A stretch of 64,000 nt of DNA from Pomacea canaliculata. Taxonomy: Eukaryota; Mollusca; Gastropoda; Architaenioglossa; Ampullariidae. Shown one piece after another: positions 8,346 through 48,558 of the stretch. The stretch covers positions 17,784,725 through 17,848,724 of the forward strand of contig NC_037593.1 in NCBI RefSeq assembly GCF_003073045.1, in the 5' to 3' direction. The translations under genes were made by a program, and so were the position numbers. Numbering within the stretch: position 1 is the first letter of the stretch; every line of letters starts with the position of its first letter. The notes beneath the pieces are model-generated. The model saw only the letters and a program-made list of their open reading frames with translations. It did not search any database and had not been told where the DNA came from.

Positions 8346-11300
8346 TCAGGCAAAATACATGACTTTGATGGTGTCTGGGTGTGCCGTCACTGCTCGTGCC
8401 ATGACAGCTGGATTACGGTCTTCACTGTTGTCCGAGTGTCTGCTGCCCTCTCCACTGCAAGAACAGGTAGAGCCCTAGGTTATTCGATTGTTTTTATTTT
8501 TATTTTTTTTTACTTCATGCAAATCTATATAGAATCCATTAAAAATGCAAGTAAAAAGAAACAAATAGAGGAAGAGGGTGCAAAGCAAATGGACTGATGC
8601 TGCCCAACAAATGACTGACCTGTCATGCTCTTTTTCCACCAAATGGTATCGAGCACGGAAGGCAACCAGGTGGGCATAATAGGCTGGTGCTGGGATAGAT
8701 ACAGAACGAGTACATCGCACGTAAGTGTGGCATAGCTGGTAGGTCAGAATTTGAAGTTCATCAGCACTGAAACGATTGTCGTCCCACAGCACATGGTAAT
8801 GAGAAGGCCTACTAGTGCCCTGTGAAGGAAAGAAGGAACACAGCTGAAAAGCATGTTGTATTTGGTCCATCTCAATGCCATAGATTATTACCATGTCATG
8901 TTAAAAAGTGAATTTAAAATAATAAATAGTGAGGAAATAGGTGGAACCCAAAGTCATAATTATGCTCACTCCTTTTGATGCGTCATTTTATATATAAAAA
9001 TTTCCTTTCACAAAACTTTCCATTAAATCTGAAGGAGAACTTTGCATGCAAGTATACAAACTTACATATACATGTAAATTAATGTACATTTTTTTCTCTT
9101 TCTTCCTCTCTTTACAGCCACATAACTAGATGTTGTTCTGCACATGAGAACAGGAAAACATGGTAAGCATGCAGAAGGTATCTTCAAGGATTAAATTACT
9201 CTCTTCCCTACCTGGATACCAGCATGACTGCAGAGGTAGAAATCAAACTCAGTTGGATGTGTTATTCCCATGTCCACTGTTGTTCCAGCAGGAATGTTAC
9301 CACTGCGCCCTGTCTGGTCTTTGCGATCAGCACAGAAAAGACGTGTATGATGGCGCTTTTGAACTACAATGAATGTGATTCCTGGACGATAATCCAGCTC
9401 CAGTTTTGTGCAAGCTTCACGGATTGCCCGTAGCTCATGACTTAGCACCTGCAAAATATTAGATTCCTGTTTTTCGGCAGAAAAATAACTTACTTCTCGT
9501 GAGCAGAAATGATGCATATATGCCAAATTAAAAATTCTAACAAATATACCATTTTTAGTGGTAAAATTTCTTTCTTCGACTACTTACCAGATGACATGAC
9601 TATGTGGAGATATCACCCTCTAGTTACCTCAAATTCAGCTGTCCAAATCTGTTCTGGTCAAACGACCATAGAACAGTAGGACATGAAATCGGTTCAGCCT
9701 CCCTTCCATTCCTACGTGTCACGCTAGTCAGCAATCAACTCTAAGTGTCTGGAACCTACTGCGGGGATGGAGGTAGCTGTCATGTCATCTGGTAAGTACT
9801 TCAGGAAAAAAATTTTACCACTAAAAATGGTATTTCTTCTTTGGACTGAACCAGATGACGTGACTATGTGGAGACTAACAAGTGGAGGGAGTGGTAACCC
9901 ACCCTGGCAGAAAACCTAGTGATACACTAGGTGAAACAGATCCAGAGGGGCTGTAGGGTGTCAAGCCGCCTAAGCTGTTAAAAAAAAGCTGCCTCTGGGC
10001 TAGCGAAATAGGCTGTCACACCTACCCCATGCTGTGCTGCTGAGCCACTGACAATCCTTCTACCAGCATCAGAAAGGGTGCCAGGTCCTACAGGTAGAAC
10101 CTGGGGAACGTCATAACATGCCTTTCTTTAACCTGAATGGTACTTTCAGGCCTTCCCTTCTAGCCGGTTAAAGTAGTGGTACACGCACTACTTCATGTGC
10201 TTTAGCAGCACGTGAGGTCACTGTAAACAGCGTTACATAAACAGATCCTAGAGACAGCTGATCCCCCATTGTCTGTGCTTTTTATAGTACTGCAGCTAAC
10301 AAAACAAACTGTGTGAGCAAATCTCACTGAAACCTATTAGTGATGATTCATAAATACGGGCATACTTAACAAAGATGCCAGTAACTTGTCTCTGTTTATG
10401 CTAATGCTGTTTACTTATCTGACAAGGACAGAGACCGCTTTACCATAACAATTAACCATAGCCTCCGTAAGCAGTGAAACAAAATGACAGAACTTTCCCA
10501 ACATATCTGTCAGTAAAGCCATTGGTGTCTGTGTACCAAAATGCTTAAACACAGTCATAGAGGTGAAACAACGAGCGAGCATCTATTCCGAACTTTACTG
10601 CTGAAGTATATGCAGGATCCAAGCTTGCATAACTGTGCTTAGATAAACAAGGTGAAAGTCCTCAAGCACGTGATGGCAGAGCGGCCAGCTTCTCAATTAT
10701 AGGCTGCGTGATGTTGACAATTCCGCTGTTCACTAGCAGCAAGGTGGCGGGAAACAGATGGATAACTCTGTGAACTACCTGCTACTGCTTAACCAAAGTA
10801 TATGCCATCATTCACTGATGGAATACTTGTATCTCTCTGCCAGCAAGACACTTCCAGACCTGCCGCACTCACAAACATAGACCCGAGTGCTTCCTCCTTT
10901 TATCATGATCATCTTCACTTCCGCCTCTTACTGACCCATGCATGCACACGTGCATATATGCAGTCAACATGCTGGTGGGTATAATATGTGGCAACAAACT
11001 ATCACAGAATAAAAACAAAATGATAATCTTATATCAACCTCAGCAAAAGCCGAGACGTCGATAGCCCCGGCAAGGGCAGGACGTAGTTGTCAACACCCAC
11101 TAACTCAAAAAGCATTCATCGACCAGGAGTATTAACAGGAGCGGACACAGAAGGACCTAGAATGGGCTTCTACATACAACTTGAGTTTAGTCAAACTGCA
11201 TAACATGTCTCAACATGCTGAAGTGTTATCGGAGGCTACACAAGTTCAGCAACCCCCTGCATGAGTCACGAAGCCCAACGGCACACATTGGTGTGGGGGC

Positions 11301-14300
11301 TGGGTGGAGGTGCTAAGTCGCTGCCATCGACAGCTCCCCCATGAACAGAATACTGTGCACAGAAGGAAACAGCATGCTTGTGGTCTTTTCTTTCTTTTAG
11401 CAACACGTGTGATCACTTCAATACATACCTCCCTTTCAATACACATTTTAGACACTAAAATAAAGTGCATAGACATCACTTGGCCTGATAGGACGCCGAC
11501 AGAGAGGGGACAGGAGACACATGGCCACTTCCATCTGGTCTATCTCTCTTGTACTAAAAGAATAAGGCATCAGTCTCATGTAAATGGATTGTCATTCGGT
11601 GTCCTGAGGGAGATGAAGTAGATATCTAGCCTTACTAAAGAGCATCAGACAGGCCAATAAGCATACTTTCCCTTTTGAGATAGCTAGAGGGTGATCTCCA
11701 CATAGTCATGTCATCTGGTACAGTACGATAAAGAAATAGACAACAAGTGCAGCAATGTCATGACCATCTATTGCAGTCTGTGCACAATCTTTTTCACAAA
11801 TGCCTAAGATTACTTATCTCATACAAATAGCTTAACTCTTCACCATGTGCTATTGTGAGCCAGCAAATAACTGGTGGAAATTGTATAGGTCAAAAATAAT
11901 ACAAAACTTACTGCATGGAATTGTCCTTCGCTGACTCCATCACGGTAAAAGATAATGCGAGTGGGCTTGAACCGCGTGGAGCGGTAGAACTGTATCAGAA
12001 GTTCCCGAACCATGGTGGCCAGCTCGTATATAATTTCTTGTCGGTGTTCTTGCACCCGTACTGCTGCTGCATAGCGACTAGGATGGGCGTCCATGCTACC
12101 CACCACCTACCATACAAAGAGCCAATGGTTAAAAAAAAAACAACAAAAAAACTTGTCTGCACATGCACGTGCATATGCTATGTATGCATGAAATGCACGC
12201 ATGTGTGCAAATAAACATAATTTTATAATGAAGATATTTAGTTACATAAAAGAATAAATGAAATTATTTATTGAAAGCAAACTATGGATGCACATTAAAG
12301 GTAAAGGGATAACTGTTAACCAGCATTCTTAATGTTACCCATCAGGTAAAAAAATCAGGGCAAGCAAATGGCTGGTGGTTAAAAGCACATCCTTTTATAT
12401 TTGCACAGGCACAACCTCAACATTTATTGACGATGGTTTGGGATTTTGTGGGACAAATTTATAATAAACAATTTTTGTGGACAGAAACAAGTTTTCAACA
12501 AATAAAAACATCTTGATCTTAGGCAGATCCATCCTCGCACATGGAAACAAGAAAATAGATAATGTGCCTTGTATCTCTTGCCATTCACTCAGCTATACCA
12601 GGAGACAGCAGAATGAATCCTTTTTGTGTTTGTGCAGCACATGCATATGTGGAATCAGGAGTAGTAATTGATCTTATAAAAGGATATGTTTGTTTTAATA
12701 TTATTAAGAAATTGAATTATGAAGAAGAGACCATAGCGATGAAACTGATAGCAGCAAGGAAATAAAACCTTAGCATTTACTAAGTCAGAATTCTCCTGGG
12801 ATGGGTGTGCACACACGCATACAAAAAAAACCAGGCTGTGTAAAAATCCTCCAGTTAACAATGCAGTACTAGTGACCTTGATACAATATGGACAGAGAAG
12901 GCTCTCTCTCTCACACACTCAAAGTCTGAACAGCAGAGTCATTAACAAGTGTCTCTAGAATTCAACTACTGAGCTATAGATTTCCCCTTTAGCTTACTTT
13001 AATTTTTATTTTCAAATTTTAAATTTTTTTGGTTGTAAAAAAACATGCATCTACACTTTTTTTTTTTTTACCGATCTGATTAATCTAATCTATAGAGGGG
13101 AAAGAGACCCAAGAATTAACACTTTTTTTGCTTTGAACAAAATACATATAATTTCTCAACAAAGTCTGAAGCAATCAAATACCAATGCAGCTATCTTGTT
13201 AGTGTTATATTTAGCTTCAAGCCATGGCTTGTAGAAAACAGTTAATATCCTAACATACTACTTGCACCAAGACCAGCTCAATCAATCACATTTTATAAAT
13301 CCAGTTAAAAAGTTCTGCACACCACAGGCTGCCTTAAACTCACACCAGTGGCTGGTTGACTGGTCTATGTGATTAAATGACATCCTCATTATAAATATGA
13401 ACAAACTTAAGGGGGGGAAAAAATCACATGGAAACAGCCCTGCCACCCCTCATTGCCAGTGCGACATAATTTTGTCACCTTGCTCCGACATGGCAGAGTT
13501 GTTCAAGTAAAACTAATCTGAAACTATTAGGAAGATGCAAGATAATAAATACATAATAACTAATATAAACAAAGTGCTGATAAACAGCAGAAAACAACCA
13601 GTGGACAGTGAGGTACATATAGGCACACTGAACAACATAAAGATGAGGTACGAGATTAGAACGTCAGGCAATGGATGAAGGTATGAAGCGATGTAGATAA
13701 TATAAACAGTGTAAGATGGAGTCATTACATTATGCTTAGAATGACAGCAGGCCAGGAAGTTAGGAATAGTAATTCAGGGATAGTATTTTGTAAACATATG
13801 TTTTCAGAGAGCGTTTGAATGTAGCCTTGGAGTCCAAGTGGCGAATGTGATGTGGATGAGAGTTCCACTGATTAGCAGCACAGAGGGAGAACATCCACTG
13901 TCCGCATGTGACCGTCTATGTGGGAGGGAGCATAGAATGCAAGAGTGTAGTCAGACAAGATTTCAGTAAAGTAGTGGGGAGAGGAGCCTTCAAAGAATCC
14001 ATAGCATAGAGTTGAGAGCTTGTAGTCTATTCTAGCTTTAACTGGTAGCCAATGAAGAGAGTGAAGAAGTGGTCTGACATATTCAGATTTGTGAGTCCAG
14101 AAAACAAGACCAGCAGCTGAGTTCTGGACTTTCTGGAGCTTATCAATGAGGTATTGTGGACAGCCACCAAGAAGAGAGTTGCAGTAGTCTAGTTTAGATA
14201 GAACAAATGAGCAGATGAGAAATTTGGTGGATGAGATGGACAGAGTATGGCAAATGGAGCTGATCTTCTGGAGCTCACAGTAAGCAGCATGACCAATGTG

Positions 14301-17300
14301 AGAAACATGCTTATCAAGAAACATGTCAGCAGACATTATGCAACCTAAATTACATGCTAAAGTAACAAAAGGTACATCAACATTGCCTACACGAACAAAG
14401 ACAGGCAGCGAAGGGTAAACTCTGGCTCTCCTCTTTGAAAAAAATTAAAGCTTCTGTTTTTTTCATCATTTTATTTTAACTTTTTGTGAACCATCCATTG
14501 AGCTGAGTGTCATCAGCAAAGGATCGATCTGATATAGTGTGAGACTGAATTAAAGTAGTGACTTTATGTAAATGATGAAGAGGATGGGACCAAGTCAAAA
14601 CCTTGGGGGACTCTTGAGCGTATAGAGACTGGGGGAGACACACAGCCATCCACTATAACTGAGTCCTATCTGAGAATGGGAAACTGAGAAACCAGTCGAA
14701 TGGGGAGCCTGAGATGCCATAGAGAGTAGTGAGTCTTTGAATGAGAGTAGTGTGGTCTATAGTATCAATGGCAGCAGACAGGTCTAACATGGTGAGTAAT
14801 GAGATGTCACCTCTATCCAGTGCAGACAAAATGTTGTTTGTCACCTTAAGCGGGTAAGTCTCAGTGCTTTGAAAAGGGCGATAAGCAGACTGATGGAGAA
14901 AGACAATTTTCAGAGTTAGGATAGGACAGAAGTTTCTTGAGAACTACTTTCTCAATGATTTTGGAAAGAAATGGCAAGTTTGAGACTGGTTGTTAATTTG
15001 TCTAATATGTTGATGCCAAGGGTAGGCTTTTTAACAGTGATTTCACTAAGGCTGTTTTAAAGGTAGTTGGGAAGATGCCAGAGGACAAGCTATAATTTAC
15101 TATTTCTGTGAGGGCAGGGAGTAGGATGTCAAGAAAGTCTACCAGTAATGGGGTGGGAACTGGGTCCAGTGGACAAGTTGTGGGTTTTGACTGGAGCCTG
15201 ATAGTCCTAAACTCACTTTCCAAGATCGGATGAAAGGAAACAAAGGAGCATTTTGGCCCTGCCAGATCATCGACATGGTTAGCAAGAGCTGAAGGGTGCA
15301 CAGGCAGTTGAGCAAGTTTAGCTTGGAAATCAAGAATCTTGTGAACAAAAAACTCAGCCTGTTTGTGAGGCCCAACATGTGTTGCAAGCCCTAAATAGGC
15401 TCCTACTTGACAGACAAGAATTGATGTGAGCACAGAGGAATTCAGTTTTGGCCGCATAAACAACATGACTGCATGTTTGGCAGCATTCAGCATCTATTTA
15501 TGACAGTCAACCCAGACCCACAAAACCTTTCAGCTCGTTGATGCTTCGCCTTCGCTCTCTGCAGCTCAATGCGAATGCTGGGATACTATGGCGTGTTTGT
15601 TGGGGTGAACTTGGGCATGCACAGCAGGATCATGGGCTTCCAGCATGGAGTGCAGAACACCCACAAGCCTATCAGCAGAAGCTGAGGGGCAAAGGGATAG
15701 TTCGGTTCCCACGTCATTACGAAACATAGACATGTCCATGTCACGGAGATGGCATAGAGTGTGAAATGCTGGTGTCAGTGCTGGGCAACTGGCTGACAGA
15801 TTAATCAGCACACAATAATGATCTGAAGAGAGCACATTTGAGACAGAAATCCTTCATATGACATGATCTACAGGTCTGTGCACCACCCAATATACATTTA
15901 AGGATACATTTCGTTAACAAAAAGATCACTGTCAGATGCGAAAAATGTTCACTTGCAATTGAATGAGTGCTTCAGTAAAGTCACTGTTAGTGTTATTTAT
16001 TCATGAGAGGAAATTAACAAATATATACACATATGAAATCTTACATAAGCAGACATCTGTAAACAATTATATATATGTGCATGCATGCCTGCGCAATCAA
16101 TACTCCCACTTTTACTTCCATCCAGACACCTTTCTTTCACATAAATAAAACAAAAATAACAAAATTTTGATTCTAAGAAAGAAAATGGAACTAAAACTAT
16201 AAATCTATACTCTGCCACTGTAGCAAGGTGTTCAGAGCAATCAACAGGAAAAGCTTTCAACACACAGCAAACCAAACAAGGAAACCAATTTCCATGGAAG
16301 GTCATCTTTATACAACTGGGCAACTTTTCTCCAGTTACCATTCCTGCTAGAGAATCAGTCTGCTCTTTTAATTGTTGTCAGCTATGCTCTGCTTAGTGAA
16401 TGTTTAAGGTATTACTACTAAGAAATTTATCCAAAAAATTTGTATCCTAAAAGAGTATGCCAAAGGCTGAAGAAAATAAAGACAACAACAAAAAAAAGCA
16501 ATGGAAGATTTGCAACAGAAACTTATGCATTCAAGAACTTGTTTCCTTCCTCTGAGATAGTGCCATACAGCACAACAAGCACATGGCCAGTGTCATTGGC
16601 TCTTGCAACATTACAGGGGCATTTACTATATCATATATAAATACCTGCTTAGGGGAATGCTAGTAATTACTGAAATTCATTCAATTTCTTATGTAAATCA
16701 AAGATCAGAAACATATTTTACAAGTATTTCCTACCCTGTATATATAACATACTAGTTATAAATCTGATGCTTAATTCAGTAATTCCACTCATCTTTAACA
16801 GATAACGAACAACTTTCACTAAAAGTTTAAAGCACTATGAAGAATGCTTTTCTTTTCCACTTTTTCCCTTAGCTTTGGATAATTCTTTGTTTTTAAACAC
16901 ACAGATCTCTGTGTTGCTTTTTCAGTAAGACAGAAGAATCTTTCAAAAATATGTTACGTGTTTTTGAAAAACAATTCACAAAGTAATAAATAATTACACT
17001 TAATAAATACTTCACTGCCCCCAAAATATTACCCATGGTTTTTATGATTTTTAGGAAAGTGAAAAATATGAGAGTTCAATACTAACACTTTTTCTTTTCA
17101 CAAAACAAGTTGCACTATACTTTTCAATAAGAAACTAGAGCTGAGAGCTGCAATAAACAGAGCACAGCAGACAGCAGACTATTTCTCAGCATGTGGGAGA
17201 GGACTTACTGCTGCTATGGAAGGTTTACTGGAGTCGCCGGCAGGAGGGTGTGTGACATCAGCACCAAGAAATATGATCGGCTCCCGGAACACCGCCGGGC

Positions 17301-20300
17301 TGCAAGCAGAGAGAAGTAGTACCTTTGGATAGGTCTTCATAAGACAAAAAAGTACCAGTAGTGTATACCAGCCACCAGGCCATGAATTTACACACTGGTG
17401 AGTCCAGAGGTGCCAGAGGCAGGCAGCCTTGGTTGTGAGTGCTCCATATTTATCTATGTTTCGCCTGGCAAATTCAATTAACCACCCTGACAATGTCCTA
17501 AAGCACGAAGCTGGGTGGTGTTGGATGGTGCAGCAAGCTGTACAATACACTTGTAAAGCAAACTGTCACACCTGTTGAATCCACAGGAAACACAACAGCA
17601 TCTTCCTAACGGCTTTATCCTTTCACATGCACACATATAATGCATGTGAGCACATATGCTTATACAAGCACCCCCACTCTCTCAATCACTCCCATCCCAG
17701 CTAAAACAATGAAGAGCCACTCAAGCATAATGTCCGTCTCTTAATAGTAGGAACCCTCACAAAGATTACACAATTCACACTTTTCCCAACAGGCAGGGAT
17801 GCCATAACTGGTGCTTCAAATCACCTTTGCTGCTTTCACTAAAAACAGTAAACACCAGACTGCCTACTGTTCTTTATGTTTATCAATAGTTTTCGTGCAC
17901 TATACTGGTTTTCAGAAATGTTTTGCGCAAATCTCAATAGCAGAACAAGAAATTCATAAATGGTGGCTTGCTGCTCCAAAAAACATGTCTCCACACAAAC
18001 ATTATTGTCATGGTGAAAGCATACTCTACATTCTCTTGATGTTTCACAAAGTGGACAGCACAGTCTTTTTTTAAACTGTTCTTCTCTTGACTGTAATTAA
18101 AGTTGTTTTTGGCTGTACTGTTATTTTTTTAATACAGCATTTAAGTTTCTTAGTGGAAAAAGTTTTTAGGTCGGAGTTTCGTGAAGCTTTCTCATTCACA
18201 GAAAGATCACTGGATCAAAAGCTACAAAACCAAAAGAAAAATATAAAATTTTAATGTTTACAAAAAAAAAAAAAAATCACTGAGCCAAGAGGCTTTTCCT
18301 CCTTTTGGGTATATCACTTGTACTGTCCTAGGCTTCCACGATAAAAAATACCACTCATCTCTTCTTGGGGTGGGTGGGGGAGAAAACGTTCATACCCACT
18401 ATTAGAAGGAAATCGCTGTCTTATTTACTATGATCCAGCTCAAACTACTTTGGAGAATAACTTGGGTCTCTTCCTCCTACATTATGTGACTATAAGGAAA
18501 ACATCTGAGTCTCAATACACAAAATAAGATGGTTTGCAGGGTTTGTCTCTTGGCTGGCTTGTTTCCGAGGCGAGGCCAGGTGCCAGAGGTCCAGCACTAT
18601 TATAACAGGGCAAGTCAGGAGAATGATCAGAGCAAGCATCTAGGTTTCAGGGCTGCACAGTGGAACTTACAGCACCGATGGTGGGTTTGCATTTGTCTCC
18701 CACGGGTGGGTGAGTGATGCTGGCACCAAAGAAGATGACTGGCTCATGGAAGACAGCAGGGCTGCACCCAAATATCAGATGACCGTGTACTTGCTTCCAT
18801 GAGCATGATTATTATGGGATACTTACTCTGCTATATGCATATGTGAGAAAACAGTGTACTCTTGTACATGCACCCATCAAATACAATTTGATTAGCTTTT
18901 GCTAACAAAAAGAAAAAGAATTAAACTTCAGCAAGGTCTAGCAGGTGAAAGATATGTAAAACAATATTTCAGACTCTTGAATTCTAAACTTTCAGCTTAG
19001 GATGCTGTTTTTGAAAGGTGTTGGGTTTCTTAGGCAGCATACTCAATAAGAGAAGCTCAATAAAATTAAAAGTTTTCCCAGCTGAAAATCACTGCTATCA
19101 TTTGGAAAAAAACAGTGGATTCTCTGAAAGGGTGGGGGGGAAAGAAAAGAAATTCCCAACAGTAGAAAAAACAATTTCAAAACTGTCTTTCTTCTAGACT
19201 TATCAGATGACATGACCATTTAACACCGCCAGCTTTGGAATCGCACCCCCTAAAGTTTAATAGTGGAAGTTAAACTACAGAGAACAGTTCCCCTCACTAA
19301 ACACTACCCCTGAATTACCCGAAGTAGTTGGAAAGTGGGAAGATTTTATGTCATATTATCTGGTAAGCCACGAAGACAAACAATTTACTTTTAAAGGTGG
19401 AACTTCTTGTGGGCATTTTTTAAAATGGTTTCGCTCTTGTGAGGAAAGGTAGGAGTACACAGTGCTGACTTTTACAAGCAGTTTTCTCTAATTGCTACCC
19501 TAACCTTGAGGCAGGGTGATCAGAGGCGGTGCTGACTACCCTAGCAATAAAACGTCTTTCTCAGCTGAGTACTTGCTGTTGGCATTTAGAAAGCCAAGGT
19601 GAAACAGTTTGCAACTGAGGGAAGATAAAGATGTGCACCTGCTAATCTCATCCCCTTCTTGTCCACCATTATGAGTCTAGACATCATTCATGACTTAACT
19701 CTCTCCATGCATTACCATGTCTCCTCTTTGGTGGTAACATTATTTTCCAGCAGTTACCATCAAGTCCATAAAGGCTGCCTTTCACATGAAAGGACATGCG
19801 ATATAGGGCGTAGGGCATAAATTATAAACATGAACACTTGCCCTTGGTTGAGGTAGTACTCGTGTTTGACATCCTTAACCAATGGCTTAGTGACCAGAAG
19901 GCACAGGTTTTACAGCTGACAGTGTAAAAGGCTGGGAATCATATGGTCATGTCTTCCAGTAAAGTGAAAGAAGCAATTCATAATCACAGGTGACTGATGG
20001 TGAAACATTGACTATGGAGTGCCAAGAGAACACTGGTCTGTGAAGTGGTGGTAGTTGCCAAAGCAAACTTCACTGACTATCCCAACTGATAAAGAAGAAT
20101 TCACGAGTCTGAGTTGGATTCAAACAAAAAATACTGATAAAGATTGAGGTACGTCTTCTCCAAACATGACAGAAAATTTACGTCTTAAAACATAGTATTT
20201 AGATTGTCAATTACAAAACTGTTGATGCTAAAAGCAACATCTGATCCCTAAAAAAAAAGCAGAACATTAATGTTGAGCCTGCTAGTCAAGTAATCACGGA

Positions 20301-23300
20301 ATACTCTTAAGCGAAAACACTCTTTTGACAGACTGCAAGAGTTAACATATTAAGATTATGCTTACCGTATGCTAGGCAGCAGGATGCTGTTAACACCACC
20401 CAGTTTGACATTAATCTTGAGACACAGGTTGGACAATGTCTGGGGGGTAGTTTTGTTTACATTTTTTGACTGCACACACTGGGTAGCTAATCCAAACAAG
20501 ATGTCACCCACTCGCTTAACTTCAGCTGCACACAAAATGGTGGCAAGTCTTTAGTTTCGTGAAATGCAACAATTTGGTCCAGTCTACGGGTACTTTGCCA
20601 AAACTTTTACAAAGCATTTTACAGAGAAACATGTAAAGTATATGTTTCTATATGTCTTTCTGTTACTTTGATACAAATTCAGACTACATAAGAGAAAATC
20701 TAGACCTGAAATAACAGAATAACCAATGAGCTGTTCAAAGTTTATTAGTTGAACAGTAAAGCTGACAGAGCAGAACAAGTCCAAATAACTCACCATATAC
20801 AGGTGTCTTGCCAGGGAGAACAACAACAATCAGCTGCAGACCCTGGTAAGTGTTCTTCAGATACCGAAACATGGGTTCCACCTGGTCAGGGCCAGTGGCA
20901 TACTTGCAGAAGCAAGGCTGCCCCATGATAGGCATGCCTGCATCATTAGAAATGCGTTGAAGATTCTGTGTGAAGTTCCTGTGAGTAGATAAGAGCAGGA
21001 AAAGAATACTGATCAAAATTCAAAGTGGCATAAGCAAGACTTAAAGTTTTATTCATGAACTGTTCCTCTCCAACTCCCCCCCCACCCCATGTTTTCCTTG
21101 AAGAATTTATGCATACAGCTGAATGCTTTTCTATGTATAAATACAAATACATACATGTGTACTTACACTATTTCCCCCTAAATTTTTTTTCCATGTTCCT
21201 ACTCTGAACTGGTTCACAAGGTTTGTTGTCAAGAAACTGACAATCATCCTGTCTTATTTTCAATTTTTACTCAACTTTAATATTTTTCCACATATTATTA
21301 TACATAACCTGGAATATGCTTCACAATTTCAATTTCTGGCTCTTTCAAATGTTCTCATGCATGCATATACATGCAATGGTAAAATAACATCCTCTTAAAT
21401 AACACAAACACATGTGTCCTTGTGTGCATACCTCCCCTTTTAAATACACAAATAAATGGCAATCTAGAATTCCAAACCTTAAAGCATCCTCGCGGACATT
21501 GCGCTGAGGAGCAAAGCAGGCAATGGCCCACACTCGTATCTCTATGCCATAGTAGAACTGTTTGCCACGCATATCCCACACACCCTGATTGGGTACAGCC
21601 TGCGCTTTGGTCTAGATACCACAAAAATTACAATAGCTCAAGAAAAAGTGCATACTTCAAGGATAACAACTATCGTTTTCTGATCTAATTTTTTTAACTA
21701 GACTTTGTGCTGAATTCTTCATTTAGCAGGTACAAATATCTACATGTGTCAGGCATACACCTATTCATCCAAACAACTAAACCAAAGAAAGAAATGCACT
21801 AAAATGATCACACGAATCAAACATAAAAACCATTCAAACTCCAATAACTTCAAACTTCAATTGAAATATAGTTATGAGACCAAATATAACAGCTATAAGG
21901 CACATCATAAATAAAAAAAAAAAAAAACAAAACAAAAAAAAACTCATAACCAGATGAGTAACAGGATTGCCGTTTTCTACCTTACCTCTCTTTTGTTTCA
22001 AAGCTTTCTTTACAGCATATCTCCTCACACCTGTATCTCCTTACCCACATTTCACAATCCCTGCTCCTTGCAAATTATATAAAATGTTCATGTCTCCACT
22101 GACCACTTCACTGTTATAATCATTCTGCGTAATATTTACTATTTGAAGTTCTTTATAGCTCAACATTTAAAATCAAGTGTTACATCACTCAGTTAAAACA
22201 AAAAGCATAAACTGAAATTAATCTGATTTTAAAATTTACAATCCACTCTTTTGGTGTAGCTACAAGATCCTGTGACATTTGTGTATTGATCGCTTATTCA
22301 TATCAATTGGAGTTTTTTCCCCCTTAAGACTTAAACAAACAAAAAAAAACAAAACCAAACTACATTTTCAATGATCTTGTAATGTGAAGGATTACTGGCA
22401 ACTGCTGGCCATTCCTTCATCACTCTTTTTACAAATCACTCCCAGATTTCTTAGGTACAGTTGCTGTGATGGGCAATAGCAAAACCATGGTGCAAAACTC
22501 CACAGCCCAGTGGTCCACACGTCACAGCACCCAAAAAAGCAATTAAGCCAAATGACCAGATAAACAGGCATCCACAAGTGCACACCACCACTCTTAAACA
22601 ATTAACTCACAGCATGGGTCTGCAGCTAGGACTAAAGAAGTATGTTAAAAAAAAATGGGGACTGGGGAAGATAAAGATGTGCACCTGACAAAAAATGTTT
22701 GCCTTCGTGTGGGTTCCTTCTAGAATGCGTATCGCCAGCAAACTTGCTATGACTATCCCATGATTCATTATTTCAGATCTATGCCTGTTTTGCCCTCACT
22801 AATAACAATGCTAATTACAACCACCTTCATTCTCTCATGCAATGGTTTCCCTCTTCCCTCCCCTTCCCTTGCACCACCCACCACACCCCCTTTCTTTTAT
22901 TCCAAAAGCTACAGGCAAGTAGCATATCTCTGTATTTGTGCTCTGTACTGCCTCCCTTAATGGTATGCAACAGACCACAAAATTGTACACAAACACTGCA
23001 CATTAAGCAGCATGCCAAGGGGGAAAGGCTCATTGACCAGGACAAGAGAAATGCATTCTGACGGGGTCCTTTTCCAATGGCTAAGTATGTACTGAATGCT
23101 CACTTAGCTAGAAGGAACCCATTTTAAGCTGTGGATGCATGGACCATAACCATAGAGAAAGAGAACTAAGGCTGGGACAGTCAGAAATTGTCTTACCCTC
23201 CCTCCATACTGCAATTTAGGGGCCGTAAGAACTCGCCCCTCCACTTCCATCATTTGAGTGCTTATGCTGATTCCAAATGTTTGCAGGTATGGGTCCGCAT

Positions 23301-26300
23301 TGAAATTTGCCTTGCGCACCTACAGTTGAGAGAAGAGTGTGCCGGGGATGGCAAAAATAAATTGAAAAAAAAAACAAATCTCAGTGAAAGTTTACACTTT
23401 CAGTTTTTTTTTTTCCAAAAGAGTTGCAATGGTGATGGCTGCTGAAGATCTGCTGTCACCTGGCTGGTATAAAGCTTTACTTAAAGCAAAGCTCCCTGTT
23501 CAGTTTTGTGCAAGTGCTGTCACTGCCCCCTCTGAGGTCATATTAAGAGGGCTCTGAAAAAGCTTTCTGCCTGTGCCTAAGATAAAAAATCATCAGCTCA
23601 ATTCTTCTCAGAAATTTGAAGCATGTCGCAACACTTGGAAAATTGTTTTGGTGATACAATGTGCTACAGAGGTGGCAAAAGCAGTAAGGTTTTCCAGAGC
23701 CCAAATATAAAGAAAAACCAATCAGTTGGAGACAGGCACCACTGCAGAGATTTGGAAGGAAAAAAAAAACCAAAACAAAACAAAGCAGACAAAGAGAGGA
23801 CAAAACAAAACAACAGGTCCAGGAGCTGGCATCAGATATAAAATGGAAAACGTGTATGCCTACCCGTCCTCCATATTGCAACCTGGGCACAGGGAGGACG
23901 CGGCCTTTGACCTCGGTCATTTGGGTATCAACACTGATGTCAAAGGTGCGCAGGTAGGGGTCATTGTTGAAGTCAGCTTTTGACACCTGGCAGGCCGAGC
24001 ATGACAGGAGAGACCAAGCCACCAAGTGAGACAATCATCATGGGCACACAATGAATCAGCAACAATATCTCATGAACAGACACATCAGAACCTCACAGCC
24101 AGCAAAACAGGTTGCAAATGCTGGGCTGTGAGGTTCACAAAACTCAGTCAGAATGTTTAGGTATGCCAGTGGAACCTGCACAATGTCATTTTCTCCATCA
24201 CCTAATCTACCTTAACAGCACCTGCAATTCACTCTCTACCTGTTACAAAATATTCAAGGCCAGCTAAGTCAATGGGCACTATGCGCTGCTATTGGAGGAT
24301 TCCTCTAATCTGAGCTACTTTGCTTTTTGAACTTGCTCAGTAATAACTGAAAATTGCTTGTTGTCATGTTGGACTGTCATTTCTAAATACAACGCTCACA
24401 CCCCCATAAATTGAATCAAATGATGACATTTATGTTAACCTTAAAATTTACTTAAAAAAGGAGGGAAATAAAATCACCAAGTCTTTTTTTATTACCAGAA
24501 ACAAATAGAAGCAGAGAGGGACAAAAGAGAAAGCAATGTCTATGAAGATCAAATTATTTCAGAAGCTGAATGTGGGTTTGTGGATGAATTATGTGTAACA
24601 AGAATAAGAAACAAAAATAATTCAGTGCCCATGACTTCAAATGACCTATACAAAGCCTCTTGGAATTTACCTACATTTATTCAACCTTTCGATTCAAGTA
24701 ACTAGCTGTCATCAGCAAAAAAAGTTTTGTACATAACTGTCAAAAATATAATTTGCTAATGTTACTTTGAAACATGAAAAAATATTGGATTTCAAACTTA
24801 CTGAGTAAAAAGGAATGGATATATTTTTCAAAAAACGTAAAATATTTGATAGTCTGGTTTACTTTTTTCCCCCCCTGCACGACCTATAAACTCACCACAT
24901 ATATGCACATGCATACATACAGTCACGCATGCTTACACATGTGCTCAAAACTGACATGCGTGCATACACAAACCTGTGCATCTTTTCCTTTTTTTTTTTT
25001 TTTTTTAATAAAGAGACAGACGAGCATCTGATATATTGTCTGCAAATAGCAACAAGGTCTTTAACAGAAGACATGGCAGACTTCACTGAGCACACCTCTG
25101 ACTTGAGAACACAACTTTTTAGCAGTGCTGATAGGAATGAAAGCCACAGCTGCAGACTGGTGGTCACCAGTTCAATACCTCTTATTAAACAATTCTAAAC
25201 AGTTCTTTTTCAACAAGCAGCAAAATAAAAAATAAGTTTATAATGTCCAGTATTATCCTTATATTTGACTTACAAAATAAAGGTTAGTTTACTTTCTTCA
25301 TATTAGGGGGTGGGAAAGCAGAATAAAAGGAACTGATGAAGGGGTGGCTATAAACTTTTCCCTTGAAATAAAGATAGCATTACTGGTACATTACAGTGTA
25401 CACAAGTCAGCTTTGTTATTCTTTGTAAATACTGATTTTTGAGAACTTGAAGCAATTACAGTATGGTTTTCATTAGCAGCGTACAAAAGATGTGCAGCAC
25501 AAAAAAGATGGCATGTTATCAACTATCCACCAACTACAAGACACAAATGCAGCTGCTTCAGAGATGAAAACAATGACCCCCAGATACACCTAAAAATGGA
25601 AACAGACCAAGACATGGTGGGTGTGCAACAGATAATTTTGTGTATGTGTGTGTGTGCAGGTATAAGTGTGCATGCACACGCACACGTGTGGACATGCCCA
25701 CAAAAGCATGCATATAATGTGTAGATGCATACATGACTGTGTGCACACCCACCCACACACACACACCCTACAATATTAATGTTTATGTCAGTTATGAGAA
25801 AATTATTTGTATTATAGAATTCTGACAAAAAATTTAATATGCTAATGCAGTAAATAGTTCTTGATTATATGAGCACCACAACCGTGAGTTTCATATCACT
25901 AGAAACTGTCCCCCATAACTGTGATACTGGTGGCTTGATCTCTCATGCCTTTTATGGCACAAGTCTGGGTACTATATCTGAGTCATAGCCCATATTCTAG
26001 GCCTGAAAGTGCAGACTATTGAGGAGAAATGTTAAATTAAAAATATGCATATATTTTCAGCAATGCTCAGTTGCTTACATCTGAAAAAGAACATTTTTGT
26101 TTGAAAGGAAATGAGCATGCTGTCAGAAGGTATGAGCATGAGATGATTTACATATATCAAAAAGATCAGCAAGACTAGTCTGCTTCTGGATGGATTTTCT
26201 TCAATAACAAATTTCCTCCTGTTTCAAGAATCAGTGTTTGAAGTGATGTTGATAAGCAGCATACTGAACAAAACAGGTAACACAGAAGTACTAACAGATA

Positions 26301-29300
26301 TAACAGTACACTTTGTCTTCTGGAGTCGAGGTTTTTTTCCCCCTTTCCTTCCTTTCTGCAATATACACATGCCTAGTGTGCTGTTCTCAAGTGGTATGTG
26401 TTGTTTTCATAAAAGGAAAGCAGCATATTATGCTTCAAGAAAGCCTCAAGTGCCATTAGCACAACTTCTACCTAGAAGAATATATACTTTTCTTTTTAAA
26501 ATTACTAAAAGCTCACCTATCCCTGAAAAAAGAATGTAATATTCTTCAGTCTGAAAGCTAAATGAATGTTCAAGCCAGCAGTTTCTTGCCTGCTTACAAG
26601 CCCAGTGCAAATTTTGTGTGTCATAGCCACAGTTTTCTACTAGAAACATTTCCAGCTGGTCAACGTTGTAGTTTATTACAGCAATTTCCCAACCTCCCAA
26701 AGCAAACTCTAGCAAATTCTCTCCATTACAAATTAATGAAAATTTTTTAAAAAGAGAGACAATTAGCTGTTGTCCCAAAATATGCACTGACTGAGGCAGG
26801 CAGCCATCTTGGGGTACATTACAGGGGACTATTTGTATGCAAGTATAAACAGCAAAATTGTTAGTGATGCAAATCCACCTTATTTGTTCATTTATAAATT
26901 TACTTCAGAAATGGAAGATGTGGTTTGTCCTATACATTTGCACACTCATGCATGCACAGACACACTTTTTACATTATGAACTGCAACAACAGTGGGATAG
27001 TGGAATAACAATACTGAATAGTCAGACAAATATTGGTGTATTTGCATCCTAAACAGCTACATCATTCTCCCCTGAAAATGTATGACTAGCTGACAATGCT
27101 CCATAACCTGCTCTCACTTCAGCTGAAGGAGGCTGTCATCACTTGCAACAGTACGAAGAAAATTTGCAATTTCCTTTACTTTTCATGAAAATTTGCTCAC
27201 TTCACACAGCCACTTTGCCGAGAGTGAGATTTAGTTTGCAGAGCACTGTCACTCTTGGGGGAAGATTCCTGTATTTGGCGGCTCAAGCCAAGAGTGAGTT
27301 GCCAGACCCAAGCTCTCAGACAAAAACAAACACAGCTGAGCACCAGCAAGCTCAGCATCAGAGACTACTTCTCGCAAATAGGCTGCAAATGCACTTTGAA
27401 AATGCTATACACAAGTCAGAAGAAAATAAGCAACAGGATATAAAATTATGTTAAATGGTCAGCTTCAGTCACATATCCTAATTTAACATGTAAATAAACA
27501 CATAAGCATCCCCTGACAACACTTATGGAAAACATTTGCACAAAACTATCAACTTGTTTCAAATGTGATTTCCCAACAGGCAACATATACATTTTGTGAA
27601 TATTGTCTGATTTTAAATTCTTGCTATGAAAATAAATTAACATTATTAATACCAATTTGTAAATTGTATGATAAAGACAGACTTCTGTATTATTTTTATC
27701 AATGATGAATGAATGACAGTAAGATAAACTGTGTTTATCAACAGAGATTATAATTTTACATGAAGACTGCTTTTAAGCAGTTTTGTTGAAGTATATATTA
27801 ACATTTCAAATGTCCTATAAGCTCATATGTCACACACCATAAAAAATGCTTACCAAGTTGTTGATCTCTTTTTCACGGTCCGGAGCTGACCTTGCTGTCG
27901 CCTGAATGAATAAGAAATATTTGTGAGTTTTTTATTTTTCCCTCACCATTCCATTGACCCCAAAGAATGCCCATGCAAAAATACATCAACAAAATAATAC
28001 AAATTCCTCCTCATATGAATATAATTATACATCTAAAGCATATTTATCAATGTCTGAACTGACTAAGCTCTCAATTCAACCACTGCAAATATTGATAATG
28101 TTCTCTATCACTAATTACGGACAACACGTCCAAATATGTCTGCAAGACACTTTAAAAAAAACCAACTGTATTAATATTTAAGTAATATTTTTTTCTCGGT
28201 CTTTTCATGCACACAGACAGAATTTGCATGTGACAAGGTTACCGTTAAGTTTAAGATAAGAAATAATAAAAACATTTTTTAACATGGACAATGCACATTA
28301 AAAACATCAAGAAAGTAGCCAACAAGATATAAACAAGATCTGCAAGCCTTTATAAAGTTTGGAGAACAGAAGCAGGAGCAGGAGGTGTCACATTAACTTA
28401 CTTAGTATAGGAGCCTACAGCTCAGTGAACCCCGTTTACATTTATCTATATCTTCAGTAAAGAAAACCATACAACGCTAAGGTCATAGAACTGCACTCAA
28501 AATTCAGCATTAGTGGAAAGGATGCTGTCGTTCACAAAATACACTTATGTCTATTTTATCGACTTTAGAAAGAATTTGCGACATGGAGTTTTTCCTTTTT
28601 ATTTCTCTCTCTCGTATATTCTGAGAGTCACAATGCTGTAAATTTACATAGGGCTCAAAAACAGCCAATCTGCAAAAGGGTCATGATAATGACCATCTAC
28701 TTAGAATCTCCTTGAGAATAAACTAAAATATGTTCAATGTTTAATAATAAGATGCATCAAAAGTGATATGGTGTCTTTGCTATCACTAATAAATTTTAAA
28801 CAATGACTGATCTCATCTACCTCAAAAATGTGGTACTAGGTTGTTGCAAATGCTACATCAATGCCATGCAGACTCACAAGCATTAGGTCTACAACTATCA
28901 GTATCAAAGCTTTTGTGGTTGAAAATTTAATGAATTGTGACTACAAGAGACAATAGTTGATAGTAAACACTGAATCTATGGCCAATCATTATAATGAATT
29001 TAACAAAAAAGCGCAAAATCACATGAACACTACTCCCAAAGAAATAAAAAAGACAAATGATGATAATAAAAAAATCAGAAAGCACTTTTATAATTCCCAT
29101 CCTACACAAGCTGCTTACTAATGAAAAGCCTGGCACTTCATTGCACACTCTTGAATATGTCCTAGCCAAACATTCACACACAAAATCATACCTGGATGTG
29201 CACCTAACAAGACCATCAAGTCACTTCAATAGTGACTCTCTAGAAGGGGAAGGGAAGGGGGTGTGGGTGCAGAGAAAAAGGGGAAAACATCAAAGTTCAT

Positions 29301-32300
29301 GCTCAAAGAGCATGCTCAAGTAAGAATGCAGCTATGTGCAGCACACCTGTGGCAGCAGTGGGTTGTATTATTTATTGGAATTATTCAATAAAGCTCAAGT
29401 GTTAGCCAAGTGATTAAGTGAAAGTGTTGAAAAGGTATTCAAATATTCTTTAAATAAATATGCATTATGATCATCCTTTCTATGATCAGGTATTATTACT
29501 ACCTCTCTCTGCACACCTGTATCTTCTGGATTTAGATACCTCAAAAAGATGTTTTTCCCCTACTCAAAACCTCTACCTGAATGATAAAACTTGGCAGAGC
29601 AAAAAGGATCTACATAAAAACAAGCCTACATAAGTGTATGTAACAATCATAACTGTAATGTTTCTCATGTGCAGGTGTACTCGCTTATAAAGGTACATGT
29701 TAGGCCACCCAATAAAATCACTCTTGAGGAAATAGGCTAATGACAAATGGCTGGATAAATAAATATGTGCATATTTAATGTAACAATATGCAACAGTAGA
29801 TAGTGTGGGTCAACAGTGACCAGGCAATGACAATAGGAACATTTTTTTAAAATTTAGGTATGGTTCATACTACCTTTCTAATTTAACTTGCTGACAGCAA
29901 CACACATCCCACCCCCTACTCTGCAAGACTACCTGATCAATCCTACTATGAGGTGAGCTTGTATGCAAACTGTGATCTCCTGTTCTATTGATTCTTCCCA
30001 TTTCCCCTGGCCCCTCCCCCAAATAAACAAAAAGAACACACAAAAGGTGATCATACTAGAGTTTCACATAAACTGAACAAGGCTAAGCTACTATGCATAT
30101 GAAATATGAGGACATGACCTTATCTGCAACATTCATTTGTAAAAACTGCTGATATCTTTCTTGCATGAGTGTAATTAGTATTAGCTACATTTTTAAATTA
30201 ATTCTTATAAAACATAATTTCAAGGGCCTAAAGTTATACAATGTATTTTCCATATTTATACTTGGAAATTAAGGAATTAAAATCTATGGTTCTGAATCCT
30301 TCTCATCTCCATGTCATGGTTGAATGATTTTTTCATGACGTGTAAATGTGATAAATATCTTGTCTCTAAGCAAATGTGAAATACATAACTGTGATGGACG
30401 TATAACGACTTTTGAAAACAAAAAGGTACTCCTGTTTATTTAGCATTAAAATCTCATTAAAGAATATCAAGTTTCATGTTGTATGTACTTGTGGTATATG
30501 ACTTTTATACATTGTCTTACAATCTTGCTATATATAAAACTGCCCAAGGTAAGACCCTGTGTTGTACTGATATCCTGTCCACTGATTTCAGATCAAGACC
30601 TATGTGTAGCTTGACTTGTCTCTAAACATACATCTAAGATACATGACACCTGCCTATTATCTCAAAACAGATGCAACCAGTCCAAGATAAACATTGTAAC
30701 ACCTGCCTACCTAAGCAAAGACCTATTTAGTCTTTTTAAACAAAAAAGGTCAGGGAAGCCTGTTATCAGCATGTTTAAGCTTATTCTGTGGGATCTATTC
30801 ACATCTTGGGAGCGGAGGGGAGGTGCATGGCATAGCAGGTTGCTGCATATAGCGGCAACTTATTTGAGAGACCTTGATCATGGTTGATGTCTGCATATCT
30901 GTCAACTTCTTGATGCATCGCTGTCCTCCAACAACATTGCAAACCTGAAACATCCACAAAAAGAGATTTAACCACTATAAATTTCATATCAATTTATGTG
31001 TGTGTAGGTCTGCATAGGGTGGGGAGTAGGATAGGATACTGGCACACACACATATCTGCACACAATTGAATAAATGTTTCCTTCACACTATGGAAGATAA
31101 TTTTACAAAAGCTACATTTGACTGCTGTATTATAAGAGACACTACAATAAGGAAAGCAAAAGCACACATGCCAATCATTCCTACGCTAGCCTCACCTCTA
31201 GAGGAAGATATGTATGCTTCTGCTCCTGTCCTACTTGCAAGCAGGGGAGATGTGGAAACCTGCAAAACAAACTCCCTTATTAGAACAACTGAGAAAGCCC
31301 TTCAACTGCATTTAAGATTATCTTAGAAACAAGTGAAACTTGGCATTGCTGCAACAATCAAACAATGACACGTCTGCAAAGCCAGTTTCATTTCTACTTT
31401 GCTGTCATTACAAGATTATTAGTCTTAAAATAATCTTCAACCATGCATAAAATTTAAAAAGGAGAATCAAAACTAATTTGTTAATGAACCCAAGCACTAT
31501 AACATCAGATAGACATTTCAGACACTACATATTACAGTAAGTGTACTCACTGCAAGCGCATTTTATATCTCTCGTAAAAGTAGCGGGCAACAGTGCAATC
31601 AATGGTCTGACCAGAGTCCAGCTGGAGTGGGAAGCTAAGACAGACCAGAACAATGACTTTTAAAAAATCCTTACAAAAAAATCCAAAACAAACAAAAACC
31701 ACTACATCATATTCTTTTCACTTGTCTGTAAGTTCTTAATAAGGAATTAATGAAGCATAGCCATGTACCATCCAAGATGACCAAAGCAGACATGAAAGAG
31801 TTATCTCTTTAAGTATTTTTTTTAATTGAAAACTTACTTCTCTCTAACTATTGAACTTTTTTTTTTGTTTGTGTTTAACGCCGTGCCAGCAACTAGGGCT
31901 ATATCACGGCAACAAAAAGTAATCTTAACTTTAAAAGTTTAGGGACAAGACCTCCCCAGTCATATACTCATGACATTCTTTAAAAAAGTAAACGCAAGAA
32001 GTAAACAAAATGTAAAAGAGTGGGTAAAGTGTGAAGAGGAGTGGTGAAGCCCAAAAAGGCCACCAACAAACCAAAAAAACCAAAAGACAACAGTTATCAG
32101 GATATAAAATTTCTTAAATCTGATGGTAAAGTTCTATCCTCCTTAAAAATGTAAAGACTGCTGCCAATGGGACAGACCTGAACAAAGAAAACAACGAATT
32201 TTCTGTAAAAAACTGCCAATGGATACTCTAGAGGTCAGGACAAACAATCATAACATGTATCACACTAAAACTTCCTTTACACCACGGACAAACTGGTGGT

Positions 32301-35300
32301 GGCTCACTTCATGAGAGGTGTCCTTGTGTGGCATAGGTGTGTCCTAACTTTTTTCTAGCAAGGACCACCTCCTGCCGCCTCACAGGATGGCACGAAGGTA
32401 AGCGGTCAGAAAGACAAGGGTGGCATGTAATTTATTTTGGCCCAGAGTGTCCCAATGGCGTTGCCATAGGGACTGAATGTAGGCCGAGAAGATAAGTTTA
32501 CAGTCTGATGATACCAACGAGTGTAATTTGTCAGGAGACTGACATGCAACCTTGGCAGCCTGATCTGTTCAAACATTGCCTGAGATACCAGCATGGCCAG
32601 AAGCCCAAATAAAAACAATGTCCTTGTTACAATGTATGAGTGCTGCATGAATTGTATGAAACTAGACCATGAGAGGGTGGTTAAAATCATTGAAAAGAAG
32701 AGCTTGGAAGGCAGAAAGAGAGTCTGAAATGACCAAAAAGTTGTGCTCCGAAGACCGGTGAACATGCTGCAAAGCTAGAAAGATGGCGTGAAATTCCGCA
32801 GTGAAAATAGAGCAGTCATCTGCCAGTTGAACTGAAGCAGACCATTTTGGTTGGCAGGATGGAGCTGCTGCCGCAGTGACAGGGTCACCACTTGGGAATC
32901 TGGAGCTATCTGTAAAGAGAGAACAGAATCCAGGATAGTCAGAAAGGAGTTCCTGAAAGCGTTGGAGAAAAATGAGGTCACTAGTGTCCCCTTTTTTTAA
33001 AGGATATAAGATCTGTACCAATCTCTGGAACAGGAAGGTTCCAAGGAGAAGATGGTAGTAGAGAAGCTCTGCCTGTTAAATATCTACTCCAGCAGCTTGT
33101 AAGTGAGGTGCAACACTGACTGATAATGGCTTTTGCTCCATGGTATAAATGGCATACACGGCAGCATGCTGAGGTCCAAAAACAGACAACTAGTAAGAGC
33201 AATAGGATGGTAAGAGTTGGGATCAGAAAGATCCTTGCCAGGTTTTGGGATGGGCAACACGACTGCCTCTCTCCACAAGGGAGGGAAACAGCCGGACAGC
33301 CAAATAAAGTTGAAGATGTCTGGAAGGAGAGAGACCTGTGGAAGATGAGTTGATAAGAAATGTTGTCTTGGCCTGGTGCAGAGTCCTTCCACTTCTGAAG
33401 GGCCTGCTGCAGTTCAGAGAGAGAGAAGGGTAGATTGCACTTTTCGGAGTTGTCAGAAGAAAAATCACAGCCAGAAGATTCCTTAACAGATTTCAAGTGC
33501 TGGAAATCTGGATGAGAAGAAGAGGAGTTGTGAGCAATGGTGGATGCCAAGGAATTAGCAACATCTCATGCCTCTGTGAGAACAGACTCTCCAACCCAAC
33601 CCAACTTCAATGAGCTGTCAGTGGGATACATAAGGCATGTGCCAAGCTCATTTTGAGGTATGTAACTGATTAGAGAGCATATCAAGTCTATTATCTCTTT
33701 TGGTTATGTCATCTGGTAAGATTCAAAAACTACAAAATAATTGTGCTGTTAATGTCTCATAATGAAAAATACTCACTATTTCTCCTAAATCTGTAATGCT
33801 ACGCTCACTCCAGAATTCTAGCAGTACATGCTATATGCATCACAATATTTCCAATAAAATTATGTTCTTGGTGATTTTTAATGTACATAACAATACAAAT
33901 AAAAATCATGTTCTAGAGATCACATAAAATAACTATAAATGATAAGGTGAAAAGCTACTCACGACTGAGTCTGAGCGGGACGACGAGTGACATTGCATAC
34001 ACGATACTTTCTTCTCATATTGCCACAGTGAGTGATCTCCACCTTGAGCCCTACAAAAGAACATTTTTATCTCTTTTTTTCTGCATCACAATACAATAAA
34101 AATACAGGGGAAATTCAATATGACATCTACAAGTTGTCTGCACAATACAAAATTACATCCATCAAATAGTCTACTTCTCAATGTATTTAAGTGCTGAATG
34201 TCCAGTAGCAGGAAAAGATTGAAATAAATGTCTTCTAAAAACATGACAAATGTAAAGTTAAAAGAAAAAAGTCTATTCAAGTCCTACAAACATGAAAAAT
34301 CCACTTTCTACATTTTACTGTCTATGAACTGCCAACACAAGTTCCAACCTTTTATTTCCTTTGTAAACTTGACACGCTGCGAGTCTGTAAGTGGACGCTT
34401 CTGTTCCGCAACATCCTGCATGTCCAGCACTTCACACATGAACTCAATCACTGGCTGTGCCTTGTAAAATGCAGTTGCTGACACTGCAAATAGTTGTCAA
34501 AAACCAATGCCTTTAATCACATATCTATTGGATGCACTTGCAACAAAAAGAAAATCTTAAACATGGGAGATTACATAAAGTTACTCATCTGTTTACAAAT
34601 AAAAACTTCCTGTCTAAATGTCACCTCTGCCATTGATAGATGCAATGTGATTCTCTACATTGTAACAAAAGACTGAAGCTGAAGCTCTAAAATTGGATAT
34701 CTCCTGTTCTCCGTCTTGCTTTGGACTTTTGACTATACAGGTAGTCCTCGACTTACGACGTTGATCCATTCTTACGCGGCGTCGTAAACCGAATTTCGAC
34801 GTAAGTCGGATTATAAGTTCATACAGTACTGTACCATAATAACAGTACAGTACTGCAAACACTTAGCCTATCCAAACACCTATCCTAACACAGTACCCTA
34901 CATAATTATCAATTGACATAAGTACAGTAAAATATTGTGCAGTACAGTACGTTTAATAATGAAATACTGTACTGTAAGAGCTGTAAGAGTAATAAACAGT
35001 GTACGATGCTAAACCTCGTAAGTCGGAATGAGCGTCGCATAAAGCGTCGTAACCACGAAACGACATTACTCGAGACCGTCGTAACCCGAGGACTACCTGT
35101 ACTGGATTTTGTGCCTGCTTTACTGACACTTTATTATTATGTTCTAGCATTGTGGACTATGCATTTTACATTTTTTATTTACAAACCACATACGCTGCTG
35201 CATAGATTCTGGATCTATGCGCTTCAGCGATGTCGTCTGGTGATTAGATCTGTTTGTGTCATTCTGCATCTTGCTGTATGTGTGTGGGGCTTACTACTGT

Positions 35301-48500: not shown

Positions 48501-48558
48501 TTAAAGAACCTAATTTTTAGCATTCATTTGCGTTTTTTGTTTTGTGAATTTATTTCAA
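45541..48558. other. intergenic region between AGO and UNC-45, with promoter-like motifs
   Basis: Apart from the foldback element no gene was recognised. ETS-type motifs CCGGAAGT occur at 47825-47832 (+) and 48049-48056 (on the - strand, ACTTCCGG). CpG content looks higher from about 46.9 to 48.5 kb than in the introns, consistent with a TATA-less promoter zone for UNC-45, and perhaps a distal 5' exon for AGO. A perfect stem GTGTCC/GGACAC lies near 47,872-47,890. Transcription start sites are not visible. Confidence 0.4.
45919..46268. mobile_element. foldback element with poly-G tract and 5-bp target duplication
   Basis: A 350-bp element starting CAGTGGCGTAGGAA and ending TTCCTACGCCACTG, with ATAAG repeated directly on both sides (45914-45918 and 46269-46273). 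It contains a run of 18 G at 46010-46027 and several G7/C7 runs. There is no protein; proline- or glycine-rich open frames here are side effects of the G/C runs. Located between AGO and UNC-45. Confidence 0.8.

Follow-up and report, generated by a model that had tools for sequence, protein, structure and literature searches.

Argonautes that slice their targets and Argonautes that do not are known as paralogues, encoded by separate genes and divided according to whether the catalytic tetrad DEDH (Asp, Glu, Asp, His) is intact or incomplete, as in the division between human AGO2, which slices, and AGO1 and AGO4. Worm ALG-5 is given as an example of the non-slicing kind (PMC9882359), and the slug Deroceras is reported to have two AGO genes, AGO2a and AGO2b, one of which carries a tetrad change (PMC12506671). 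An Argonaute lacking the first Asp of the tetrad has also been engineered, with Ala at that position and the other three residues kept (AEDH), in worm ALG-1 and ALG-2 (PMC9882359). That splicing can choose a key residue is known from the NALCN channel of snails and other invertebrates, where alternative exons of one gene are described as swapping residues that set a property of the protein (PMC3557258). Here we analysed a window of 64,000 nucleotides (nt) from the snail Pomacea canaliculata (NC_037593.1, positions 17,784,725 to 17,848,724), which contains an AGO-clade Argonaute gene with two alternative versions of one PIWI exon, 18a and 18b. The catalytic Asp is present in 18b, in the motif GADVTHP, and is replaced by Ser in 18a, in the motif GASITHP.

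Each of the known systems has one part of this arrangement. NALCN in snails is the closest known design, since there too splicing chooses between exons of one gene that swap property-setting residues, and in gastropods as well; the NALCN residues, however, belong to the selectivity filter of a channel pore and not to an enzyme, whereas the 18a form of the Argonaute would be expected to lose catalysis. The paralogues share the division by tetrad, with separate genes where Pomacea has one. The AEDH worm proteins share with 18a the replacement of the first tetrad Asp and the retention of the other three residues, but their Ala was engineered, while the mollusc residues are natural, Ser in snails and Asn in oysters. 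Among the open-access papers listed by our literature searches, judged by title and opening of the abstract, none appeared to concern an Argonaute with a splice-chosen catalytic residue. Splice choice of a key residue and slicer-dead Argonautes are both known, and their union in one gene appears to be undescribed. A survey of RNA interference genes in 43 lophotrochozoan species covers the Argonautes of this group, but each gene was represented by its longest isoform, so that a switch in exon 18 would not show; the main text contains no word starting with 'exon' or 'splic' (PMC11114477). AGO2b of Deroceras could be an unnoticed exon of the 18a type, which we regard as only a lead.

Exon 18a (18671 to 18761) and exon 18b (17209 to 17299) lie on the minus strand of the window and are separated by an intron of 1371 nt (17300 to 18670). 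The initial annotation had described two same-phase exons of 91 nt here, with 1371 bases between them and with GT-AG borders, and its coordinates were exact to the base; its exon number, 18, is correct if the count includes three short coding exons at the 5' end. Both exons are preceded by AG and followed by GTAAG. They are identical at 59 of 91 nt and at 20 of 30 residues, the latter figure reproducing the earlier count, and the 18a peptide matches 18b within the window with E = 4.7e-12, which excludes a chance likeness. The nucleotide differences at codon positions 1, 2 and 3 number 7, 5 and 20, and this excess at the third position (binomial p = 0.001) is a mark of coding constraint. The same codon is used for just 6 of the 20 residues common to the two exons, which indicates that the duplication is old. 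Judged from these comparisons, the pair looks like an old duplication in which selection at the protein level holds both copies.

The length of the two exons restricts how they can be used. Because 91 is not divisible by 3, inclusion of both exons or skipping of both shifts the reading frame, so that exactly one exon 18 is usable in any one messenger RNA (mRNA). In our partial gene model, a stop is met at codon 624 if both are included and at codon 617 if neither is, as against a normal end at codon 857. The two exons are adjacent, homologous and equal in length and phase, and their joint inclusion or joint skipping is unproductive, as is the case for a mutually exclusive pair. The idea that 18a serves as a poison exon was ruled out, since 18a alone yields a full-length frame.

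The catalytic position was placed by a gap-free alignment of both exons to an AGO2 sequence, which we take to be human AGO2, and to Protein Data Bank (PDB) chains named Protein argonaute-2, presumably also of human origin. The best PDB matches bear this same name. In the alignment, the Asp of 18b falls on D597, and 18a has Ser at that place; both exons encode the strand in which the slicer site has its first metal-binding Asp. The 18b form has the complete tetrad (Asp, Glu, Asp and His at D597, E637, D669 and H807), while the 18a form has SEDH, with Ser in Pomacea, Babylonia and Batillaria alike. The proposal that exon choice sets the first tetrad position to Asp or Ser was borne out in this way, and the other tetrad residues were found, as had been claimed, in constant exons: Glu and the second Asp (E668 and D700 in the numbering of the initial annotation) in exon 19 (11912 to 12106), and His, within AYYAHLV, in exon 21 (8620 to 8819).

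Structural work indicates what the loss of this residue may mean. In human AGO2 structures the active-site Mg2+ is described as bound by D597 (PMC10772731, PMC11893014), and in plant AGO10 a Thr-His beside the catalytic Asp is reported to touch the target backbone (PMC10772731). This Thr-His is retained in 18a, and the Babylonia 18a isoform P0002 scores above the cut-off for all six Argonaute Pfam families. With the D597 carboxylate lost and the Thr-His kept, the 18a protein would be expected to bind targets and not to cut them. By analogy with Mg2+ chelation by D597 and with the AEDH mutants, we infer that it is a slicer-dead Argonaute. The Asp-to-Ala change in worms is itself said to inactivate orthologues, and cleavage loss was not validated in the authors' own proteins (PMC9882359). 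A predicted structure of P0002 made from a 35-protein alignment was too poor to use (mean predicted local distance difference test, pLDDT, 47; predicted template modelling score, pTM, 0.33).

If 18a were a relic, its sequence should not be held between snail families. A search with the 18a segment scored 51 candidates and matched 48 proteins, and more divergent forms could be missed by it; a second protein search listed 120 of its 798 matches, and a further search gave 5. The protein database consists of cluster representatives, and isoforms within clusters are hidden. Exon copies were counted by a pattern present in 126 of the 127 listed proteins (the one it missed, P0046, has Asp), and the copies of exon 18 divide into 123 with Asp, 4 with Asn and 3 with Ser; the Asp-less copies are found in seven proteins, three from snails and four from oysters. 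GASITHP occurs in three of the 48 proteins matched by the 18a segment, namely Babylonia areolata isoforms X3 and X4 and a Batillaria attramentaria model in which both alternatives of both exon pairs of this gene (the second pair is described below) are fused into one protein. Pomacea 18a is identical to its counterpart at 29 of 30 residues in Babylonia and 27 of 30 in Batillaria, and these identities rule out 18a as a relic or chance exon; 18b is identical at 29 of 30 in each. The initial annotation had named a broken frame in 18a, or its absence from every close relative, as telling against its proposal; instead, 18a is kept with Ser in two other caenogastropods.

The Babylonia isoforms also show the exchange in isolation. 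X1 differs from X3, and X2 from X4, at 8 of 905 residues, all of which lie at positions 636-654 within exon 18 and include D639S. X3 and X4 carry 18a, and X1, X2 and X5-X10 carry 18b. NCBI models of the 'isoform X' type usually rest on RNA-seq, and we presume RefSeq status for these proteins from NCBI-style names such as 'isoform X3'.

Further Argonaute genes might have supplied the slicing form independently of exon 18. We searched the whole 440-Mb Pomacea assembly (24 contigs) with the PIWI part of the snail Argonaute and scored the best candidates. There were eight matches, five of which belong to the Argonaute gene itself, with both exons 18 among them. The other three, at 37-42% identity, fall in two regions elsewhere and are probably PIWI-clade genes. 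Matches at 37-42% being all that was found outside this locus among the candidates scored, further Argonaute genes were rejected as the source of the slicing form. Pomacea canaliculata appears to have one AGO-clade gene, in which case the exon-18 switch would decide whether the microRNA (miRNA) Argonaute of this snail slices.

Our preferred reading, to which we assign a probability of roughly 0.77, is that the single miRNA-class Argonaute gene of this caenogastropod contains a splice-controlled catalytic switch between slicing and non-slicing forms. Messenger RNA with 18b would give a normal slicing Argonaute. Messenger RNA with 18a would give a full-length Argonaute that has the guide-binding parts and the target-holding Thr-His, lacks the Mg2+-chelating carboxylate, and should bind guides and targets without cutting. 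The choice between the exons would be regulated. In tissues or stages choosing 18a, the likely use of its product would be miRNA repression through partner recruitment, or the holding of highly complementary targets without destroying them; only the 18b form should cut such targets and stable star strands. Worm ALG-1 and ALG-2 with Asp changed to Ala are reported to have normal abundance and to allow normal gross development, with mild star-strand effects (PMC9882359). On this precedent, the 18a protein could carry ordinary miRNA repression.

Several observations weigh against this reading. Exon use is known here from 'isoform X' proteins, which are computed models. The sole visible Pomacea protein, NCBI isoform X1 (the representative of a cluster of seven), uses 18b, and the 18a form is annotated only in the Babylonia isoforms and the fused Batillaria model. 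Asp is found in all seven listed Aplysia californica isoforms (X1-X7), in the Littorina and Nucella representatives, and in the listed isoforms of Mytilus, Pecten, Mizuhopecten, Ylistrum and Lineus (mussel, scallop and ribbon worm), and 18a was seen in none of these. The distribution of 18a may be restricted: either it is a caenogastropod feature, with a separate origin of the oyster form, or the exon has often been lost or is hidden in clusters. An enzyme with Ser or Asn might also keep residual activity. Finally, the pyrimidine tract before 18a (0.50) is poorer than that before 18b (0.75). The constant exons of the gene range from 0.45 to 0.85, so that splice strength says little, and the idea that a weak 18a acceptor proves regulation found no support.

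The oysters bear on how old such a switch might be. Asn, in the motif GANVTHP, occurs in four oyster proteins: Magallana gigas X4, Crassostrea angulata X3, Saccostrea cucullata X5 and C. virginica X2. Ostrea edulis X7 (P0059) has Asp, and it is 90% identical to M. gigas X4 (P0005, Asn) over the first 112 residues. Across the exons from 7 to 22 other than 14 and 18, these two proteins agree at 606 of 608 residues. This count omits exons 4 and 5 (62 of 68 and 38 of 40), the N-terminal end, codons interrupted by an intron, and alignment columns that Pomacea lacks, among them a GGTYIP insert in P0059. In exons 6, 14 and 18 they agree at only 39 of 60, 25 of 41 and 25 of 30 residues (for exon 18, Fisher p = 3e-6 with residues treated as independent). 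Since the differences are confined to whole exons, the pattern is one of exon choice, and an exon-18 switch in oysters is likely on this comparison.

One competing explanation applies to oysters alone and would leave a switch in the snail untouched: the Asn form could be the product of a separate gene, or a change fixed in the species, unrelated to the snail exons. We consider this a substantial possibility, clearly short of even odds. No Asp isoform of M. gigas was visible among the protein matches listed, and Ostrea edulis X6 (P0124), which is 76% identical to P0005, looks like the product of a second AGO gene. The near-identity of P0005 and P0059 outside exons 6, 14 and 18, on the other hand, is what exon choice would produce. 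We note that the C-terminus of P0124 is repeated, apparently through an error in the model or the assembly.

If instead the non-cutting exon were older than the gastropod-bivalve split, it would amount to an ancient, mollusc-wide switch in the slicing of a sole miRNA Argonaute. The residue lost is the same in the Ser form of snails and the Asn form of oysters, and so is the exon position in which it is lost. In addition, Lys is found nine residues past the catalytic position in 7 of 7 Asp-less exon copies and in 1 of 123 copies with Asp, which hints at a common origin of the two forms; since only two clades supply the Asp-less copies, the seven are not an independent count. By overall exon identity, the snail Ser and oyster Asn forms do not group. 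We hold the ancient switch to be a tentative proposal and rather doubtful.

Two further explanations accept 18a as functional and differ in what it would be for. In the first, loss of slicing is not its main purpose: guide or target release, unwinding or protein contact would be altered, and the loss of Asp would be a side effect of a relaxed need for slicing after loss of the endogenous small interfering RNA (endo-siRNA) pathway. The 18a exon does alter further sites that are near-invariant among the 123 copies of the Asp type, with Phe instead of Leu (Leu in 118 copies), Ile instead of Val (Val in 122), Val instead of Ala (Ala in 123), Thr instead of Ser (Ser in 123) and Gly instead of Ala (Ala in 118). 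Trochozoans are reported to have lost the endo-siRNA proteins wholly or in part (PMC11114477), and slicing mutants of worm miRNA Argonautes are described as grossly normal (PMC9882359). Against this, the intact slicer exon 18b is equally well conserved in both relatives, from which slicing still seems to be wanted in part of the mRNA pool. The oyster Asn form, moreover, departs from the common Asp-type residues mainly at the catalytic residue and at the Lys nine residues on. We regard this explanation as unlikely.

In the second, the switch is real and the product of 18a serves chiefly as a competitor or decoy, drawing guide RNAs or partners away from the slicing form. The 18a isoform has the full set of domains, so that competition for guides is to be expected, and the mammalian readthrough product Ago1x is reportedly a competing isoform. 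Nothing in the sequence removes partner binding, however, and we rate the decoy slightly below the relaxed-slicing explanation. That 18a is seldom used or in decay, and without any role in the animal, is very improbable: the exon is unseen in most of the gastropod isoforms listed and its use is known from models, yet it is in frame, almost unchanged between snail families and annotated in Babylonia isoforms.

A second alternative pair, which the initial annotation had missed, lies 4-5 kb upstream of the exon-18 pair in the linker-2 region. Exons 14a (23864 to 23986, used by Babylonia X3) and 14b (23197 to 23319, used by NCBI Pomacea X1) are 123 nt each, cover most of linker 2 and are identical at 29 of 41 residues; joint inclusion of both keeps the frame. 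Each form is found among the Babylonia isoforms, and isoforms of the scallops Ylistrum and Pecten show two forms that, judged by eye, are similar. With these forms in snail and scallop, the pair probably predates the gastropod-bivalve split. It would give the mRNA a further switch, independent of exon 18, and Babylonia annotates all four combinations (X1, 14a with 18b; X2, 14b with 18b; X3, 14a with 18a; X4, 14b with 18a).

Two other slots vary. Exon 20 (9212 to 9466) has two acceptors, and a start at 9466 adds ESNILQ that a start at 9448 does not. NCBI Pomacea X1 takes the upstream acceptor, which places ESNILQ about 10 residues past the second catalytic Asp, and Babylonia isoforms vary at the same site, with HA or HATYVQ. 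In oysters a third variable slot is found in the N domain, where exon 6, at columns 201-260 of the protein alignment, agrees at 39 of 60 residues between P0005 and P0054 and the neighbouring exons at 39 of 40 and 45 of 45. No second copy of exon 6 (36359 to 36540 in Pomacea) was found within the window.

On the minus strand, the whole gene extends from 45280 to 8346, with 22 coding exon positions, of which two have alternatives. Our model agrees with NCBI Pomacea canaliculata isoform X1 (P0090) at 598 of 610 residues compared, up to the end of exon 18, and all 12 mismatches are due to the choice of linker-2 exon. P0090 scores above the cut-off for N, L1, PAZ, L2, MID and PIWI (six Pfam families). 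The coding start (MFPITPA) is in exon 1 (45259 to 45280), followed by exons 2 (40598 to 40630) and 3 (37939 to 37983); these three were found as search matches, with borders set by eye. Exons 4 (37549 to 37756) and 5 (36719 to 36839) precede exon 6, and exons 7 (36018 to 36154), 8 (34349 to 34483), 9 (33963 to 34050), 10 (31551 to 31634), 11 (31196 to 31259), 12 (30873 to 30944) and 13 (27854 to 27901) lie between it and the linker-2 pair. Exons 15 (21478 to 21611), 16 (20794 to 20978) and 17 (20366 to 20525) lead to the exon-18 pair, and exon 22 (8346 to 8454) ends with the stop codon. Inside the first long intron, an open frame on the plus strand (44011-44505) looks to us like the C-terminal part of a reverse transcriptase of the long interspersed nuclear element (LINE) type. 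Frames of a neighbouring gene on the strand opposite to the Argonaute (48544-59633, plus strand) presumably encode a tetratricopeptide repeat (TPR) chaperone of the UNC-45 type, and further open frames on the minus strand (61545-62116) read, we assume, like an NADPH-dependent flavin mononucleotide (FMN) reductase.

What slicing by animal miRNA-class Argonautes is for is an old question, since most repression is independent of slicing and worm slicing mutants are near normal. Two conserved exons in one gene, of which only one encodes the catalytic residue, constitute a natural experiment, in which the same Argonaute, with the same promoter and partners, can be compared by tissue and stage with slicing on and off. 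If the switch is true, surveys restricted to a single isoform of each gene can be mistaken about which animals are able to slice.

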